Shown: positions 12,041-20,412 of the stretch, piece after piece
Layout of the letters: each line of letters starts with the position of its first letter
Position numbering within the stretch: the first letter of the stretch is position 1
From: Herminiimonas sp.
GTDB lineage: Bacteria; Pseudomonadota; Gammaproteobacteria; Burkholderiales; Burkholderiaceae_D
Assembly: GCA_028292665.1 (NCBI GenBank)
Contig: JAQGLW010000107.1
Coordinates: forward strand, 1-64,000
DNA: 64,000 nt
Direction of reading: 5' to 3'
The notes under the pieces: generated by a model
What the model saw: only the letters and a program-made list of their open reading frames with translations
The model's database searches: none
What the model was told of the DNA's origin: nothing
Program-made: the position numbers and the translations under genes

Positions 12041-14614
12041 TCAGCCTTCACCGTTTTTGAAGCGGGCGATTATTTCATCAAACCGCTTGCCGATGCGTTC
12101 ATCGGCCAATGCAGGCAATCCGCATAATTTCAATAACACGGCATCTGCCGTGACGGCTTCCCGGCCTGCCTTCAATGATGACTGCAGCACCTCGACCTGC
12201 AGTTGCAAACGCTCACGCGATAGTTCAGGCGGACTATCGATTCCCATTGATATCTCAAGACGCAATAACGCATGCGCCAGTATGCTGCGGTTTTGTTCGA
12301 GAAGCGCTGCATACCGGCTGTCACTCGTTTTCAGCGCCGTAATCGCTGCATCGAAACGCGCATTCAGCGCACGTTCGAATTCCGCAGATAATGAAGGAAG
12401 AGTTTGCCAGCCTGCCTGCAATTCCAACAGGCCGCTTTCATCCATCATCTTGCTGCCTGCAATCTTGTTTTCGACCTGATGGCACAGCGCCATCCTGTCG
12501 CGCAACGCATCGAATCGAGCTGCCGCCGCAGAGCGGCGCGCCTGCTCAAGCCTCGTCTGCAATGCTTTTATCGCCGCCTCGTAACGTGCATCGATCCGGC
12601 GTTCGGATGCATGGGGAACCGGGCCGGTTTTATTCCATGCATCTCTGGCGTCGCGCAGAACTTTCAGTATGGCGTCATCCGATGCGCCGGCGGCCGCTTC
12701 CAGTTCCGCGCAGATTTTTTCTTTTGTCTGCAAGTGCTGCTGCCGGTCGGCATCCGCCGCCTGCGCCGCTTCCTTGCGGCTGGCGAATACCGCATCGCAT
12801 GCAGCGCGAAAACGCTGCCACAACGCCTGCTCGTCATTGCGTTCGAGCGGCAACGATTTTGCCTGTTCCTGCCAGCGTTCCTGCAAGGTACGCAATGTCT
12901 CGATCGATCCGCGATCGGCGGGATTCAAGCCTGCCGCATCGCTGATCAGTTTTTCGCGGCGCCTTATTTCGGCTTGCTGTTGCGCAGCCAGCGGTTCCGA
13001 CAATGCGCGCAAGGCAGCGGCAAATTCGGCATCTGCAGATTTCTTTTCCTTGCGGTCGATCGGTCCAAGGCGCTTCCATAGCTGAGTCATCCGTGCGCAA
13101 TAACCGGCAATCGCTTTCCAATCCGCTATGGCCGCATCCGCATTCGCGCAATTCGATGCAGCGGCAAATTCCCTGACTTCGGCAATCATCGACCTCGCCT
13201 TCTCCAGATTTTGCCGGCGCTCATCGCCCATTTGTTTGAAATGCACTGCGACCGGCGCATATGCCAGGGTGCAGGCTGCATCGAAACGGCGCCACAGATC
13301 CCTGCCGGCCGGTCCGGCCGAGGCATCCAGCGACTTCCAGCGTTCGCGCAGACTGCCTGTTTTTTTCGCCAGCTCGGATATTGCAAGAGCCTGATCCGGC
13401 AGATCTTCCGCGGCCTTCAGCAATTCTTCGCGCGAGATATTGCCGCCCCACTTTGCCCAACTTTGCAAGCGGCTTAATTCGTTGCGCGCTTTTGCCAGTT
13501 GCGCACTTTGCGCAGGCGACAGTCGAACTGACATCAAATCGATTGCGCGCAATATCTTGTCTTGTTCAGCAGCGATGTGCAATGCACCGTTGTCCAGCGC
13601 TTTCTCCATGCCATCCAGAATTTCGGTGAAATGCTGCCGGATATCACGGCTCGCGCCTTGAAGGGCAGTCTCTTTCGGTTTGCGCGATGTGCCGATTCGG
13701 TCGATCAGTGCGTCGAATCGCGGCTTGAACAAATGCGCATCGGCCTCGTGCAATACCGGCAATGCACGCCATGCACGCTTTAAATCGTCTTGTTCCAGCG
13801 TGTCGACCGGCGCGGCTTCCCAGCCGGCAATTGCCTCTTCATGTGCCAGGATCGCCGCATGACGCTTTTCCATCGATGCCAGCGTTTGCCGGAAGCTGCG
13901 ATGCTGTTCCTCGAATTCGGTTATTAAATGCCTTGGCAGCGACGGCGCTTCCGGCGCTGCGCAATATTGGTTCAATTCCTGTTCCAGGCTGTCAAGCGTT
14001 TGCGCAATCTGCGCAGGCGGCACAAGCTGCGATGCGTCGGACACCTGTATCAGATGCTGCAGTCTGCCGCGGACATCGATAACGGCGCGCTGCAATGCGG
14101 TTTGCGCTTCCAGCCGTTCTCGCAATAGCGAACGGGTGCTGTCAAACAATTCCCTTGCCGATGCCGGAACATCGCCGACCGATTGCCATGCCCGATCGAG
14201 GTCGGCGACCTGGTTAAGCATCAATTGCCGCTCTTCGACGAGGCGCTGCGCTTCTTTTATGCATTTGCCGGCCTTTTGCTCGCGCGCTTCCTGCTGCAGA
14301 ATCGCGTCCAGCCGCTGCTGCATTAATCTGGCTACCCGCCGATCGGTATTGCGGATTGCCTGCGCCACGCGTTCGAGGCCGGGCTTCGAATGAATGTGAT
14401 GCGCCGCCTTTAAACGCGCCTCGGCGAATTGGCATTGCAAAATGAAATCGGCGGCGGCCGCTTCATTTCCGCCAAGGTCTCCGGCTTGCGTCAATGCCGA
14501 TTGCCTGTCGAGCGCCAACGTGGCGCACTGATCAGGTCCCTGTTTCACCCCTTCCTTCAGTTCGACTGAAGCCGGATTGACAGATCGCTTGAAAAGAAAT
14601 TCGAACATATTCAT
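12041..14614 (-). CDS. DUF349 repeat protein
   Basis: An 857-residue, strongly alpha-helical, charged and Ala-rich protein made of repeated units with the pattern W-x(6)-P plus R-F-x-A-A, for example LRERWKSLDASAGPAGRDLWRRF, WQEQAKSLPLERNDEQALWQRF and AWNKTGPVPHASERRIDARY (each given in part). These are the DUF349 repeats of a family common in betaproteobacteria and actinobacteria; function unknown. No signal peptide or membrane segment, so cytoplasmic, probably coiled coil. Two start codons, 14614 and 14608, are both possible and neither has a clear ribosome-binding site. It is divergent from the urt remnant. Confidence 0.75.
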   Translation of the reverse strand: MNMFEFLFKRSVNPASVELKEGVKQGPDQCATLALDRQSALTQAGDLGGNEAAAADFILQCQFAEARLKAAHHIHSKPGLERVAQAIRNTDRRVARLMQQRLDAILQQEAREQKAGKCIKEAQRLVEERQLMLNQVADLDRAWQSVGDVPASARELFDSTRSLLRERLEAQTALQRAVIDVRGRLQHLIQVSDASQLVPPAQIAQTLDSLEQELNQYCAAPEAPSLPRHLITEFEEQHRSFRQTLASMEKRHAAILAHEEAIAGWEAAPVDTLEQDDLKRAWRALPVLHEADAHLFKPRFDALIDRIGTSRKPKETALQGASRDIRQHFTEILDGMEKALDNGALHIAAEQDKILRAIDLMSVRLSPAQSAQLAKARNELSRLQSWAKWGGNISREELLKAAEDLPDQALAISELAKKTGSLRERWKSLDASAGPAGRDLWRRFDAACTLAYAPVAVHFKQMGDERRQNLEKARSMIAEVREFAAASNCANADAAIADWKAIAGYCARMTQLWKRLGPIDRKEKKSADAEFAAALRALSEPLAAQQQAEIRRREKLISDAAGLNPADRGSIETLRTLQERWQEQAKSLPLERNDEQALWQRFRAACDAVFASRKEAAQAADADRQQHLQTKEKICAELEAAAGASDDAILKVLRDARDAWNKTGPVPHASERRIDARYEAAIKALQTRLEQARRSAAAARFDALRDRMALCHQVENKIAGSKMMDESGLLELQAGWQTLPSLSAEFERALNARFDAAITALKTSDSRYAALLEQNRSILAHALLRLEISMGIDSPPELSRERLQLQVEVLQSSLKAGREAVTADAVLLKLCGLPALADERIGKRFDEIIARFKNGEG

Positions 14615-14728
14615 GAGATAAAAATCGATCAAAACACGATGATAGCAAGTCGTAAAACCGAACCGGAATGCACGCCTGATTTTATGGTCTGCTGAAACGC
14701 CTCATTAAATCCCAAATTCAGGCATACA

Positions 14729-14755
14729 GCACCAAATAAATCAATATTTGCACCA
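14729..14755 (+). promoter_or_regulatory. two possible NtrC half-sites
   Basis: GCACCA occurs at 14729-14734 and again at 14750-14755, 21 bases apart, or two helical turns, and about 50-75 bases upstream of a sigma-54 promoter. GCACCA is one arm of the classical NtrC site; the inverted arm is not clear in either copy, so this is tentative. Confidence 0.3.
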
Positions 14756-14804
14756 CGATCAAACATGCGGGGCGATTAATGCAAAAACCTTGATGATAAC
14801 CATA

Positions 14805-14820
14805 TGGCATGCATTCTGCT
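14805..14820 (+). promoter_or_regulatory. sigma-54 (RpoN) promoter before the urt remnant and urease operon
   Basis: TGGCATG, four bases, then CTGCT. The invariant GG (14806-14807) and GC (14818-14819) are 12 bases apart, exactly the -24/-12 geometry. Transcription would start about 14831, 48 bases before the urtA start. Urea transport and urease genes are commonly under NtrC/sigma-54 control during nitrogen limitation. No other promoter is evident before ureD. Confidence 0.65.
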
Positions 14821-14878
14821 AATACTCTTCTGCGAGTCATCGCACTCTGTACAGCCCTCTCTAACCGTCGGAGCAACT

Positions 14879-15127
14879 ATGTCACGTCGCACCCTTTTGA
14901 AAGCGACCGCTGCCGGCGCTTTGATCCTTGCCGCTTCCGCATGGATACCGCAAGCGCTGGCCGCCGATACCATCAAGGTCGGTATTCTCCACTCGCGGTC
15001 GAGCGCCATGGCGATTTCTGAAACTTCGTTGAAAGACATGGCATCGCTGGCGATCGACGAAATCAATGCCAAAGGCGGCGTGATGAGCAAAAAGTTCCAT
15101 CGATCATCAAGGATATCGAACGCGTGA
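14879..15127 (+). pseudogene. urtA: urtA remnant: 5' end of urea-binding protein gene
   Basis: The first about 72 codons match the start of the periplasmic urea/short-chain amide-binding protein UrtA: a twin-arginine-like signal peptide ([19 protein letters not shown], ending ALAAD), then [22 protein letters not shown] and [15 protein letters not shown]. Normal UrtA is about 400 residues; here the frame breaks at about 15091-15096 and runs into a stop at 15127. What follows is the end of urtE in another frame. The usual LSGT after LHS is replaced by RSSA, hinting at further decay. An 82-residue secreted peptide could still be made. Confidence 0.85.
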
Positions 15128-15300
15128 TCCGGTTATTGCGCGAACGCGGCGACATGGCCATCCTGCTGTGCGAGCAATATTTCGACTTCGCGCATGCATT
15201 GGCGGATAAATTCATTGTGCTGTCGCGCGGCGAAGTGGTCGCGGCCGGATTCCAGGGTCAGATGAACGGCGAGAACGTGAAGCGGCACTTGGCGGTATAG
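15097..15300 (+). pseudogene. urtE: urtE remnant: 3' end of urea transporter ATPase gene
   Basis: Reading from CCA at 15097, the frame gives [19 protein letters not shown], then MAILLCEQYFDFAHALADKF and GEVVAAG up to TAG at 15300, 67 residues. This is the C-terminal end of UrtE, a urea ABC transporter ATPase (about 230 residues), after the Walker B region. It lies in a different frame from the urtA start and has no start codon of its own near its beginning. It ends 7 bases before ureD, the position urtE normally holds in Burkholderiales. The central part of urtA, all of urtBCD and most of urtE are missing. Confidence 0.85.
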
Positions 15301-15307
15301 TCTCGAC

Positions 15308-16198
15308 ATGAAAAGCGATGCTGCCGATTCCATTGTCGATCCTGTGCCGCAGGCTGCCGGTTCGTCCGCCGCGGAAAACTGCCGGGCACGGCTGTCGCTC
15401 GGTTTCGCAGACGATGCCGGCACGACCAGGATGATGGAGCGCAGCCACTTCGGTCCGTTGCGCGTTCAGAAACCGCTCTATCCGGAAAACTCCGCAATCT
15501 GTCACGCGATCGTGGTGCACCCGCCCGGCGGCGTGGTCGGCGGCGATGAACTGACCATTACCGTTCATGTCGGCGAAAACGCGCATGCGTTCATTACCAC
15601 ACCCGGCGCGGCCAAATGGTACAAGGCCAACGGCCGGATTTCACGACAGGATGCAAGGCTCGAAGTCGCAGCCGGCGCTTCGCTTGAATGGCTTCCGCAG
15701 GAAACAATATTTTTCAACGCCGCTGATGTAAAACTGGACAATACCGTTTCGCTTGCCGTGGATGCGACCTACATCGGTTGCGAAATCCTGTGCTTCGGCC
15801 GTACTGCCTCGGCTGAGGTATTCAATACCGGACGAATCACGCAGCGCACTTCAATCCGGCGCGACGGCAAATTGCTATGGTTCGAACAAGGCGTCTTGCT
15901 GGGTGATAATCCGTCGATGCAAAGCCCGCTTGCGATGGCAGGAAAGACCGTCTGCGCCACGTTGATTGCGGTTGGCAAATCAATGTCCGGCTCGCTCGTT
16001 CATGCAGTCCGGGAAGATGCCGCCATTGTCGACGGTTCCGGCAGCTTCGGCGCCACGCAACTGAAATCGTTGTTCGTTGCACGCTACCTGGGCGACTCGA
16101 GCGAGACGGCAAAACAGTTGATGACGCGAGTCTGGCGGCAACTCCGGCCGAAGTTGCTTGGCCATGACGCGATTGTGCCGCGCATCTGGAATACTTGA
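15308..16198 (+). CDS. ureD: urease accessory protein UreD
   Basis: A 296-residue scaffold that, with UreF and UreG, loads nickel into apo-urease. Conserved blocks are [38 protein letters not shown] and WLPQETIFF. Length is normal. It is the first intact gene of the ureDABCEFG operon and follows the urtE remnant by 7 bases. No ribosome-binding site of the AGGAG type is visible, so it may be coupled to reading through the remnant. Confidence 0.95.
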
Positions 16199-16223
16199 AA
16201 TTGAATTCGCAAAGGATAACGGA

Positions 16224-16526
16224 ATGGAACTCACCCCGAGAGAAAAAGACAAGCTCCTGATATTCACCGCTGCGCTGCTGGCCGAGCGCCGCAAGGCACG
16301 CGGCCTGAAGCTCAATTACCCGGAAGCAGTCGCCCTCATCAGCGCCGCGATCATGGAAGGCGCCCGCGATGGCAAGACGGTTGCGGAACTGATGTCAGCC
16401 GGCACCAAAATCCTGGCGCGCGCCGATGTGATGGATGGCATCGCTGAAATGATTCCCGATATTCAGGTTGAAGCGACCTTCCCCGATGGAACCAAGCTCG
16501 TGACCGTACACCACCCCATCCCCTAG
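16224..16526 (+). CDS. ureA: urease gamma subunit
   Basis: A 100-residue structural subunit of urease, which hydrolyses urea to ammonia and carbamate in the cytoplasm. It begins [20 protein letters not shown] and ends [18 protein letters not shown], as in the family. The ATG at 16224 has AAGGATAACGGA upstream. The longer frame from 16158 overlaps ureD and is not needed. Confidence 0.97.
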
Positions 16527-16535
16527 GAGCCCGAC

Positions 16536-16840
16536 ATGACGCCAGGCGAAATGCTGATCGAAACCGGCGATATCGAATTGAATGCCGGTCGTGCTACTGC
16601 CATCATCAAAGTAGCCAACAGCGGCGACCGTCCGATTCAGGTCGGTTCCCACTTTCATTTTTTCGAAACCAATCCGGCATTGCGGTTCGACCGGCAGGCC
16701 GCTTACGGCATGCGGCTGAATATTGCCGCCGGCACCGCAGTCCGCTTTGAACCGGGCCAGCAGCGTACGGTGGAACTGGTCGCGCTTGCGGGCGACCGCA
16801 AGGTATATGGATTCAATGCCAAGGTGATGGGAAAATTGAA

Positions 16841-16844
<4 letters not shown>
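16536..16844 (+). CDS. ureB: urease beta subunit
   Basis: A 102-residue structural subunit. Motifs are [32 protein letters not shown] and the C-terminal [15 protein letters not shown]. It has a good ribosome-binding site (CTAGGAGC) and its stop overlaps the ureC start as ATGA. Confidence 0.97.
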
Positions 16845-18541
<1,697 letters not shown>

Positions 18542-18557
18542 CCGGGATTGAATTGCG

Positions 18558-19079
18558 ATGCTGACACTTGACACTAAAATCGATTCTGCCGAAAAAATCG
18601 ACGGCGAGCTCGTGCTGCCGTTCGAACTGCGCGAAAAGAGCCGCCTGCGCGCCATGCTTGCATCGGGTGAAGATGTCGCGGTCTTCACTGTGCGCGGCAC
18701 GGTGCTGCGCAATGGCGATCTGCTCAAAGGCGATGATGGCCGCATAGTGAAAATCATCGCCGCGAAAGAAACTACCTACCGTGTCGACTGCAAGACGCCG
18801 CGCGATTTGCTTCGCTGCGCTTTTCATCTGGGCAATCGCCATACGCAGGCGCAAGTCGATGGCGATAGCACGACCGGCTTTTTGCGCATCCGCAAGGATA
18901 CGGTATTGAAAGACATGCTCGAAGGCCTGGGAGCAAGCGTAACGGAAGAAGAGGCACCGTTCGAACCTGAATCCGGCGCTTACGGCGGCAGCCATCATCA
19001 CAGCGGAGATCACCATCATCCGCTCGCCCCGATACCGTTGCGCCAGAAAATTCACCGCCCTTCCGATAAGGAATCGTAG
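18558..19079 (+). CDS. ureE: urease accessory protein UreE (nickel chaperone)
   Basis: A 173-residue metallochaperone that hands nickel to UreG. The N-terminal beta domain and the central LRCAFHLGNRHTQAQVDGD metal-site region with its conserved histidine are present. The C-terminal tail is histidine-rich (GGSHHHSGDHHHP, about residues 144-156), allowing extra nickel storage. It follows ureC by 16 bases. Confidence 0.95.
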   Translation: MLTLDTKIDSAEKIDGELVLPFELREKSRLRAMLASGEDVAVFTVRGTVLRNGDLLKGDDGRIVKIIAAKETTYRVDCKTPRDLLRCAFHLGNRHTQAQVDGDSTTGFLRIRKDTVLKDMLEGLGASVTEEEAPFEPESGAYGGSHHHSGDHHHPLAPIPLRQKIHRPSDKES

Positions 19080-19087
19080 GCTCTCCG

Positions 19088-19768
19088 ATGCACACCTCCG
19101 CTCTCCTTCATCTGCTGCAACTCGCCAGTCCGTCACTGCCGATCGGCGCATACAGCTATTCGCAGGGACTTGAAACGGCAATAGAAAACGGGCTGGTGAA
19201 CGACGAAACATCGGCCCGCGACTGGATCGTCGACACGCTGCACCAGGTAATGGCGCGTTTCGAAGCGCCGATCCTGTGGCGCTTGCTGCAGGCGTTCGCA
19301 ACCCGCGATGCGCCGGCAGTCGCGCAATGGACTGAATGCTTCATTGCCGCCCGCGATACTGCCGAGTTTCGCGCGGAAACGATTCAGATGGGCTATTCAT
19401 TGGCCAGGCTGGCGGCCGATCTGAAAATTTCGGATGATGCGCTGCTGAATTTATTGCAGGATCAACCGGAAGTGCCGCTGCCGACCGCTTTGGCTTACGC
19501 AGCGACGGCATTGGAAGTGCCGCATCAGGCGGCGCTGCTGGGCATGCTGTTTTCGTGGGCTGAAAACCAGGTGCTCGTGTGCGTCAAGTCGGTACCGCTT
19601 GGGCAAGTGTCGGGCCAGCGGCTATTACTATCATTACGGCCGGAGTTGGAGGCCGCGTCGCAGCATGCGCAACAACTGGCTGACGACGAATTATGCAACT
19701 GGTCGCCGGGATTATCCCTGATGTCGATGCAGCATGAAGTCCAGTACAGCCGGCTTTATCGTTCTTGA
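19088..19768 (+). CDS. ureF: urease accessory protein UreF
   Basis: A 226-residue helical protein that joins UreD to UreG during nickel insertion. It opens with [20 protein letters not shown], the best conserved part of the family, and continues with [11 protein letters not shown]. Length is normal. The gene starts 8 bases after ureE. Confidence 0.95.
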
Positions 19769-19785
19769 CCCTTTCCTATTCCATC

Positions 19786-20412
19786 ATGAAAAATCAATCG
19801 AATCCCCTTCGGGTAGGCATCGGCGGCCCGGTCGGCTCCGGCAAGACGGCATTGTGTGAAATGCTGTGCAAGAAGATGCGCGACCATTACGACATGGCTG
19901 TCATCACCAACGACATCTACACCAAGGAAGACATGGAAATCCTGTTGCGCGCCGATGCGCTGCCGGCCGAGCGCCTGATGGGTGTCGAAACCGGTGGCTG
20001 TCCGCATACGGCGATTCGCGAAGATGCATCGATCAATCTGGAGGCGATCGCGCGCATGAGCTCGGACTTTCCCGACCTCGACCTGATTCTGCTCGAATCG
20101 GGCGGCGACAATCTGGCGGCGACGTTCAGCCCCGAATTATCGGACCTGACGCTTTATGTAATCGATGTCGCCGGCGGCGAAAAGATTCCGCGCAAAGGCG
20201 GGCCGGGCATTACGCGTTCCGATTTGCTGATCATCAATAAAATCGATCTCGCGCCCTACGTCGGCGCAAACCTCGACATCATGGCGCGCGATGCGAAAAA
20301 AATGCGCGGCGAACGGCCTTTTATTTTCACCAATCTGCGCAGCGGCGACGGCGTCGAGCAGGTAATTGACTTCATCCGCCGGCAAGGTTTGCTTGATGAA
20401 GTAAAGGCATGA
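19786..20412 (+). CDS. ureG: urease accessory GTPase UreG
   Basis: A 208-residue SIMIBI-class GTPase that powers nickel delivery. The P-loop [13 protein letters not shown], the metal-binding Cys-Pro-His ([11 protein letters not shown]), the Walker B-like [10 protein letters not shown] and [10 protein letters not shown] for guanine recognition are all intact. The ATG at 19786 gives the usual length; an earlier TTG overlapping the ureF stop is possible because no clear ribosome-binding site precedes the ATG. It is the last gene of the operon. Confidence 0.95.

Follow-up and report, generated by a model that had tools for sequence, protein, structure and literature searches.

The window analysed here is a stretch of 64,000 nucleotides from Herminiimonas sp., and belongs to contig C132 of a draft assembly (4.33 Mb in 199 contigs, 98.96% complete). 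Reading the sequence and its translations at positions 14879-15300 (plus strand) shows the opening 72 codons of urtA joined directly to the final 67 codons of urtE, which are in a different frame. The left piece (14879-15094, plus strand) encodes a twin-arginine signal peptide followed by the first part of mature UrtA. Residues 32-74 of its 82-residue reading frame match positions 1-43 of the 361 in the NCBIfam model TIGR03407 with 51.9 bits and E 5e-14, against a full-length cut-off of 492.75 bits. The piece is also 79% identical over 73 residues to residues 1-73 of UrtA in G024, the relative with the most similar UreC (96% identical), and lies in the same neighbourhood there, which marks the two as orthologous. 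The right piece (15097-15300, plus strand) comprises the 67 urtE codons and the native stop TAG, and corresponds to the very end of TIGR03410 (positions 164-230 of 230; E 1e-19), with 70.7 bits against the full-length ATPase cut-off of 285.8 bits. By alignment to G024 and comparison with 18 relatives, the deletion junction is located at 15095-15097 (plus strand): the likeness to urtA stops at 15094, the TT at 15095-15096 is assignable to neither side alone, and urtE begins at 15097. The sequence-only reading had described a urtA start joined to a urtE end in another frame; both model matches agree with it, and the join is now narrowed to these three bases. With 422 bases compared with 5782 in G024 and with its pieces in different frames, the region shows both the truncation and the frame disruption of a pseudogene.

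The join creates an open frame of 82 residues (14879-15127, plus strand, by translation) with its stop TGA at 15125-15127. The earlier suggestion that a Tat-signal product could still be made here concerns this frame, which is open and scores 21.0 bits with the twin-arginine model TIGR01409 (cut-off 16.7). A GTG at 15124 overlaps this TGA as GTGA, and starts a run of 58 codons in the urtE frame (15124-15300, plus strand), open to the urtE stop 7 bases before ureD, which may serve as a re-initiation frame. The relic has no Rfam match at E 1. A new sigma-70 promoter or terminator inside it was considered and rejected, the one promoter-like and the one terminator-like match both being on the minus strand and within the level of shuffled sequence. 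At the ribosome-site region of urtA (14869-14873) the window reads CGGAG. Among 38 relatives, AGGAG or AGGGAG is found in 32 and other forms in six; the CGGAG is perhaps another sign of decay.

Upstream of the relic is a sigma-54-type -24/-12 element, TGGCATGCATTCTGC (14805-14819, plus strand), which starts 74 bases before the urtA start. TGGCATGCATTCTGC is a good match to the sigma-54 -24/-12 consensus. The call was made by consensus, as TGGCAY-N6-TGC at the conserved upstream place, and the window has this pattern there. Besides the window, 36 of 38 relatives carry the element ahead of urtA, roughly 70-130 bases before its start; when these 39 upstream sequences are shuffled by a Markov model, 0.7 of 39 on average contain one. 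From the element to the ureD start there are 503 bases in the window and about 5.9 kb in G024. The genome also has rpoN and one ntrC over the cut-off. Judged from the sequence, the element is probably an active NtrC/sigma-54 promoter which would now transcribe urease directly.

To the left, a divergent DUF349 gene of 863 aa (12041-14632, minus strand) is identified by Pfam PF03993 (120.5 bits) and by synteny. To the right follow, all on the plus strand and all open, ureD (15308-16198; PF01774, 201.7 bits), ureA (16224-16526; NF009712, 175.9 bits), ureB (16536-16844; NF009682, 172.2 bits), ureC (16841-18541; TIGR01792, 996.8 bits; 96% identical to that of G024), ureE (18558-19079; NF009751, 162.1 bits), ureF (19088-19768; PF01730, 129.3 bits) and ureG (19765-20412; TIGR00101, 346.4 bits). 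All seven exceed the family cut-offs of these whole-protein models, and the urease operon is thus complete, as had been claimed. The enzyme had also been called catalytically intact, a claim examined here at the level of these family models.

Size and placement of the probable deletion

In G024 the gene row reads DUF349 gene, urtA, urtB, urtC, urtD, urtE and ureD, and likewise in G015. The span from the urtA start to the urtE stop is 5782 bases in G024 and 422 in the window, which leaves 5360 bases (about 5.36 kb) missing; in 37 further relatives it ranges from 5558 to 5958 bases. In G016, urtB to urtE adjoin ureD and urtA lies at the end of another contig. On its left side urtA is flanked by the DUF349 gene in G024, G015, G059 and G061; in G032 and G063 it is ureD that has this gene there. 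Since the order from the DUF349 gene through urtA to urtE and ureD is intact on both flanks in G024 and G015, the join is collinear with these genomes rather than a chimera of far-apart sequences. Comparison with related genomes had been proposed for this locus, and the intact urtABCDE-ureD of G024 and other relatives bears out what had been read from the window alone: urtB, urtC, urtD, the middle of urtA and most of urtE are absent, where about 5 kb had been estimated and about 5.4 kb is missing relative to G024, and ureD follows urtE by 7 bases, as is normal and as it does in G024. On the whole, the interpretation as a deletion scar within an ancestral urtABCDE-ureD operon is supported.

The genome sample contains a single genome of this genus, namely that of the window. 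One gapped ureC row was left out of the ureC comparison. In a UreC tree, the window genome groups with G024, G016 and G015 with support 86/93, below the level that the tool stars, and the order inside the four is not settled. If this grouping holds, the loss took place on the window genome's own branch.

The two relic pieces have fared differently. The urtA piece departs from 18 relatives at 8 of the 48 columns on which these all agree; all eight lie in the mature part, while the same leave-one-out count for any single relative gives two at most (at most 2/50). With a larger set of 38 relatives, the mature part is changed at 6 of 32 invariant columns, the next highest being 3 in the distant genome G019; when all 73 residues of the piece are counted in this set, the window has 6 changes and the distant but intact G019 has 5. 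Among codons common to four relatives, the mature part shows six non-synonymous and one synonymous private changes, and each relative shows no non-synonymous one. The urtE tail, however, is changed at none of 45 columns invariant in 19 relatives and at none of 38 in the larger set (0/38 against 6/32 in the mature urtA piece, Fisher p 0.007). Changes at invariant positions are what is expected after loss of function, and the urtA piece is probably non-functional. Gene conversion of this piece from a paralogue was examined as another source of the changes and set aside: blastn of window positions 14000-19000 against stretches of contigs C95, C38, C25, C96 and C67 gives no match outside the window, and gene conversion is not needed, as each of the eight changed codons is one base from G024 in an alignment compared by eye.

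The unchanged urtE tail is not predicted by a simple neutral decay of both pieces, and may reflect a translated leader, a decay of urtA before the deletion, or chance. The first of these would have the relic kept for use: GTGA would pass ribosomes from the 82-residue frame to the urtE tail and on to ureD, and the tail would be under selection as a coupling leader. The asymmetry of the changes fits this, and so do the overlap of GTG 15124 with the TGA at 15125 and the open tail frame that ends 7 bases before ureD. But coupling requires an open frame and not the conservation of residues. The GTG stands at the same codon in 10 of 19 intact relatives, so it need not have arisen for coupling. In addition, the 58-residue product has no Pfam match at E 0.001, and the case comes from a single lineage; we thus consider a selected leader rather unlikely. 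Just as unlikely, in our judgement, is an order of events in which urtA decayed at a time when urtBCDE worked with another binding protein, and the deletion followed afterwards. It would explain why the urtA piece is changed and the urtE tail is not, and the genome does have further UrtA-like binding proteins on contigs C38, C25 and C95; however, a pairing of these with UrtBCDE is hypothetical, and the sets on C25 and C95 have permeases of their own.

That the join is an artefact, with urtABCDE still present and about 5.4 kb skipped by the assembler, is very improbable. It would be in keeping with a draft in 199 contigs that has a redundant contig end: C25 and C67 share an overlap of 804 bases that is 97.3% identical (positions 1-804 of both L044 and L048), which is perhaps due to a strain mixture or to duplicate loci in the draft. 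But in an assembly 98.96% complete, urtA or urtB sequence of the urease type is found nowhere else. The breakpoints also lack a repeat on which an assembler could collapse, for no shared word longer than 9 bases is found around them in the four relatives tested (the longest, of 7-9 bases, is not at the join). The same words, lying away from the join in these four relatives, led us to reject a repeat-mediated deletion. Finally, an assembly collapse would not yield the eight changes at positions invariant in 18 relatives, and a working urtA would hardly carry them. As the overlap of C25 and C67 may mean a strain mixture, not every cell of the source need carry the deletion. We prefer the reading that some 5.4 kb was truly deleted from within an ancestral urtABCDE-ureDABCEFG operon driven by sigma-54, with the promoter kept and urease brought near to it, and regard it as very probable.

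Other urt-like genes and the pattern in the family

A search of the whole assembly with the UrtA of G024 finds the 73-residue relic (79% identical) and then 46% at best, and with its UrtB 49% at best. The family model of UrtE finds three full-length genes over the cut-off (on C95, C25 and C67), 47-49% identical to UrtE of G024, and comparison with contigs C25, C67, C95 and C38 gives 40% for UrtC and 50-53% for UrtD. Overall, identity to the urease-type proteins of G024 is 37-53% for all other urt-like proteins of the genome, which lie on these four contigs. Contig C95 (L042, 1-7174) has a urtA cut by the contig start, then urtB to urtE, an aliphatic amidase and a formamidase. C25 has an urt-like set A to E, whose UrtA is about 43-46% identical to that of G024 depending on the program, and C67 has urtE and a formamidase, its first 804 bases matching C25 at 97%. 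A further urtA lies at the end of C38, and the urtA of C95 is 78% identical to it in protein. For other urea routes, PF03253 has no match in the assembly and likewise none in the control genomes, so that this absence carries no weight, and PF02293 has no match in the assembly, its control matching in one genome alone and below the cut-off.

In a published analysis, an amidase-linked set of Bradyrhizobium similar to these is judged a carrier of amides rather than urea (PMC3098086), while a Methylophilus system is reported to take up short-chain amides and urea (PMC10781810). The cell may therefore still take up urea by another route. It had been claimed that high-affinity urea uptake is lost, and a search for another urt set had been proposed. 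The claim stands for the urease-linked transporter, whose urtA and urtB types are not found again, and does not stand as a general one, since further urt-like sets, 37-53% identical, are present in the assembly.

Among 195 genomes sampled in the family, 121 match UreC at E 0.001, and 117 remain after four weak ones (best E 2.7e-4 to 9.2e-4) are dropped. In 55 of these urease-bearing genomes urtA lies on the same strand as ureC and no more than 15 kb upstream of it; in 33 it is found elsewhere or on the far side of a contig break; and the other 29, the window genome included, have no match to the urease-type UrtA at E 1e-110. Loss of the urease-linked UrtA is thus common in the family. Eight genomes (G021, G036, G049, G050, G079, G098, G104 and G113) match UrtA at E 1e-110 without a UreC match. 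Two UrtA relatives, G063:C325:2292-3533 and G104:C388:1532-2773, show only 48% identity to the urease type, contain one TAA that is read through in the match, and are possibly broken paralogues.

A relic of urt before ureD was looked for in the other urease genomes without the urease-type UrtA, with UrtA, UrtE, UrtB and UrtC as queries and with UrtB and UrtC matches reported from 60 bits up. The search took in 27 of the 28 genomes (not G090), of which G085 and G065 have no upstream DNA and G107 and G124 have about 200-250 bases; no relic is found in the 25 with DNA there. The 275 bases ahead of UreD residue 26 were scanned for a sigma-54-type element. With a loose pattern, one is found in 27 of the 33 genomes whose ureD has no urtE adjacent to it (25 without the urease-type UrtA and 8 holding it elsewhere), against a Markov mean of 2.4 and maximum of 9; where urt is linked, the loose element precedes ureD in 7 of 39 genomes. 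With the strict TGGCAY pattern, the counts are 26 of 33 and 1 of 39, respectively. Six loci were left out of this count (one duplicate genome, three with urtE adjoining ureD and two with the contig ending within ureD), and three further ones gave no ureD match. The genomes counted are not independent, as several share a genus. In G032 and G063, the DUF349 gene adjoins the promoter that precedes ureD, as it adjoins urtA in G024. Taken together, the sigma-54-type element tends to stand before whichever gene comes first, with the window as a step in between, and the linked state of urt and ure was probably the ancestral one.

A probable intermediate of transporter loss and its known counterparts

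The deletion would have run from a break at urtA codon 73 to a second one 67 codons ahead of the urtE stop, taking the urease-linked urea ABC transporter and leaving the promoter, the urtA leader with the signal-peptide end, and the urtE tail. The promoter would thereby have come to stand about 0.5 kb ahead of the urease genes. Translation of ureD may since be relayed through the urtE-tail frame. The lineage would then be an intermediate between the linked state, as in G024, and the relic-free state with the element shortly before ureD, as in G032 and G063. A more far-reaching proposal, which we make tentatively and hold to be unlikely, if somewhat less so than either account of the unchanged tail given above, is that the family repeatedly deletes the urea transporter between the sigma-54 promoter and ureD and so gives this nitrogen-starvation promoter to urease; the window would show the process midway, with its urtE tail retained for translation as a leader (GTGA re-initiation, with the stop 7 bases before ureD) because the start of ureD itself is too weak.

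Gene loss by deletion is clearly of a known and ordinary kind, and what the window adds is a scar unusually readable and caught part-way. A search of the literature for the loss of urt or a urt relic found no such scar, which may still exist in print. Standing alone in the family sample, the scar gives a middle stage of operon loss and ties the loss of the transporter to the retention of the promoter, and it would seem to be a stage on the way to urt loss at which the promoter has stayed with urease. It also warns that the presence of urease is not the presence of urease-linked urea uptake, as 29 of the 117 urease-bearing genomes are without this UrtA.

Among known systems, the amide-type urt/fmd sets on C95 and on C25/C67 resemble fmdCABDEF of Methylophilus methylotrophus, as that system is described (PMC10781810), in having transporters that are homologous or bear similar names in the vicinity of genes for formamidase or amidase. 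In the sets here, identity to the G024 proteins of the urease type is 37-53%, and they do not lie beside urease; the likeness to Methylophilus is one of description. For the window itself, the nearest described counterpart is Herbaspirillum seropedicae, where urt lies upstream of ure, a sigma-54 promoter ahead of urtA and the expression of both gene sets under nitrogen deprivation have been proposed, control is reported as probably by Ntr, and a urtE::lacZ insertion came from a screen for nitrogen limitation (PMC3093359). The window is like this urtABCDE-ureDABCEFG system in having urt sequence upstream of the urease genes, a sigma-54-type promoter before urtA and a urease operon, and is unlike it in having lost the genes from urtB to urtD, the central part of urtA and most of urtE. 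With the unlinked urease operons of G032 and G063 it shares the order of a DUF349 gene on the left, a sigma-54-type element and then urease genes. It differs from these two, in which no urt relic was found, in the spacing: their element lies 95-98 bases before UreD residue 26, whereas in the window 503 bases, the relic among them, separate it from the start of ureD.
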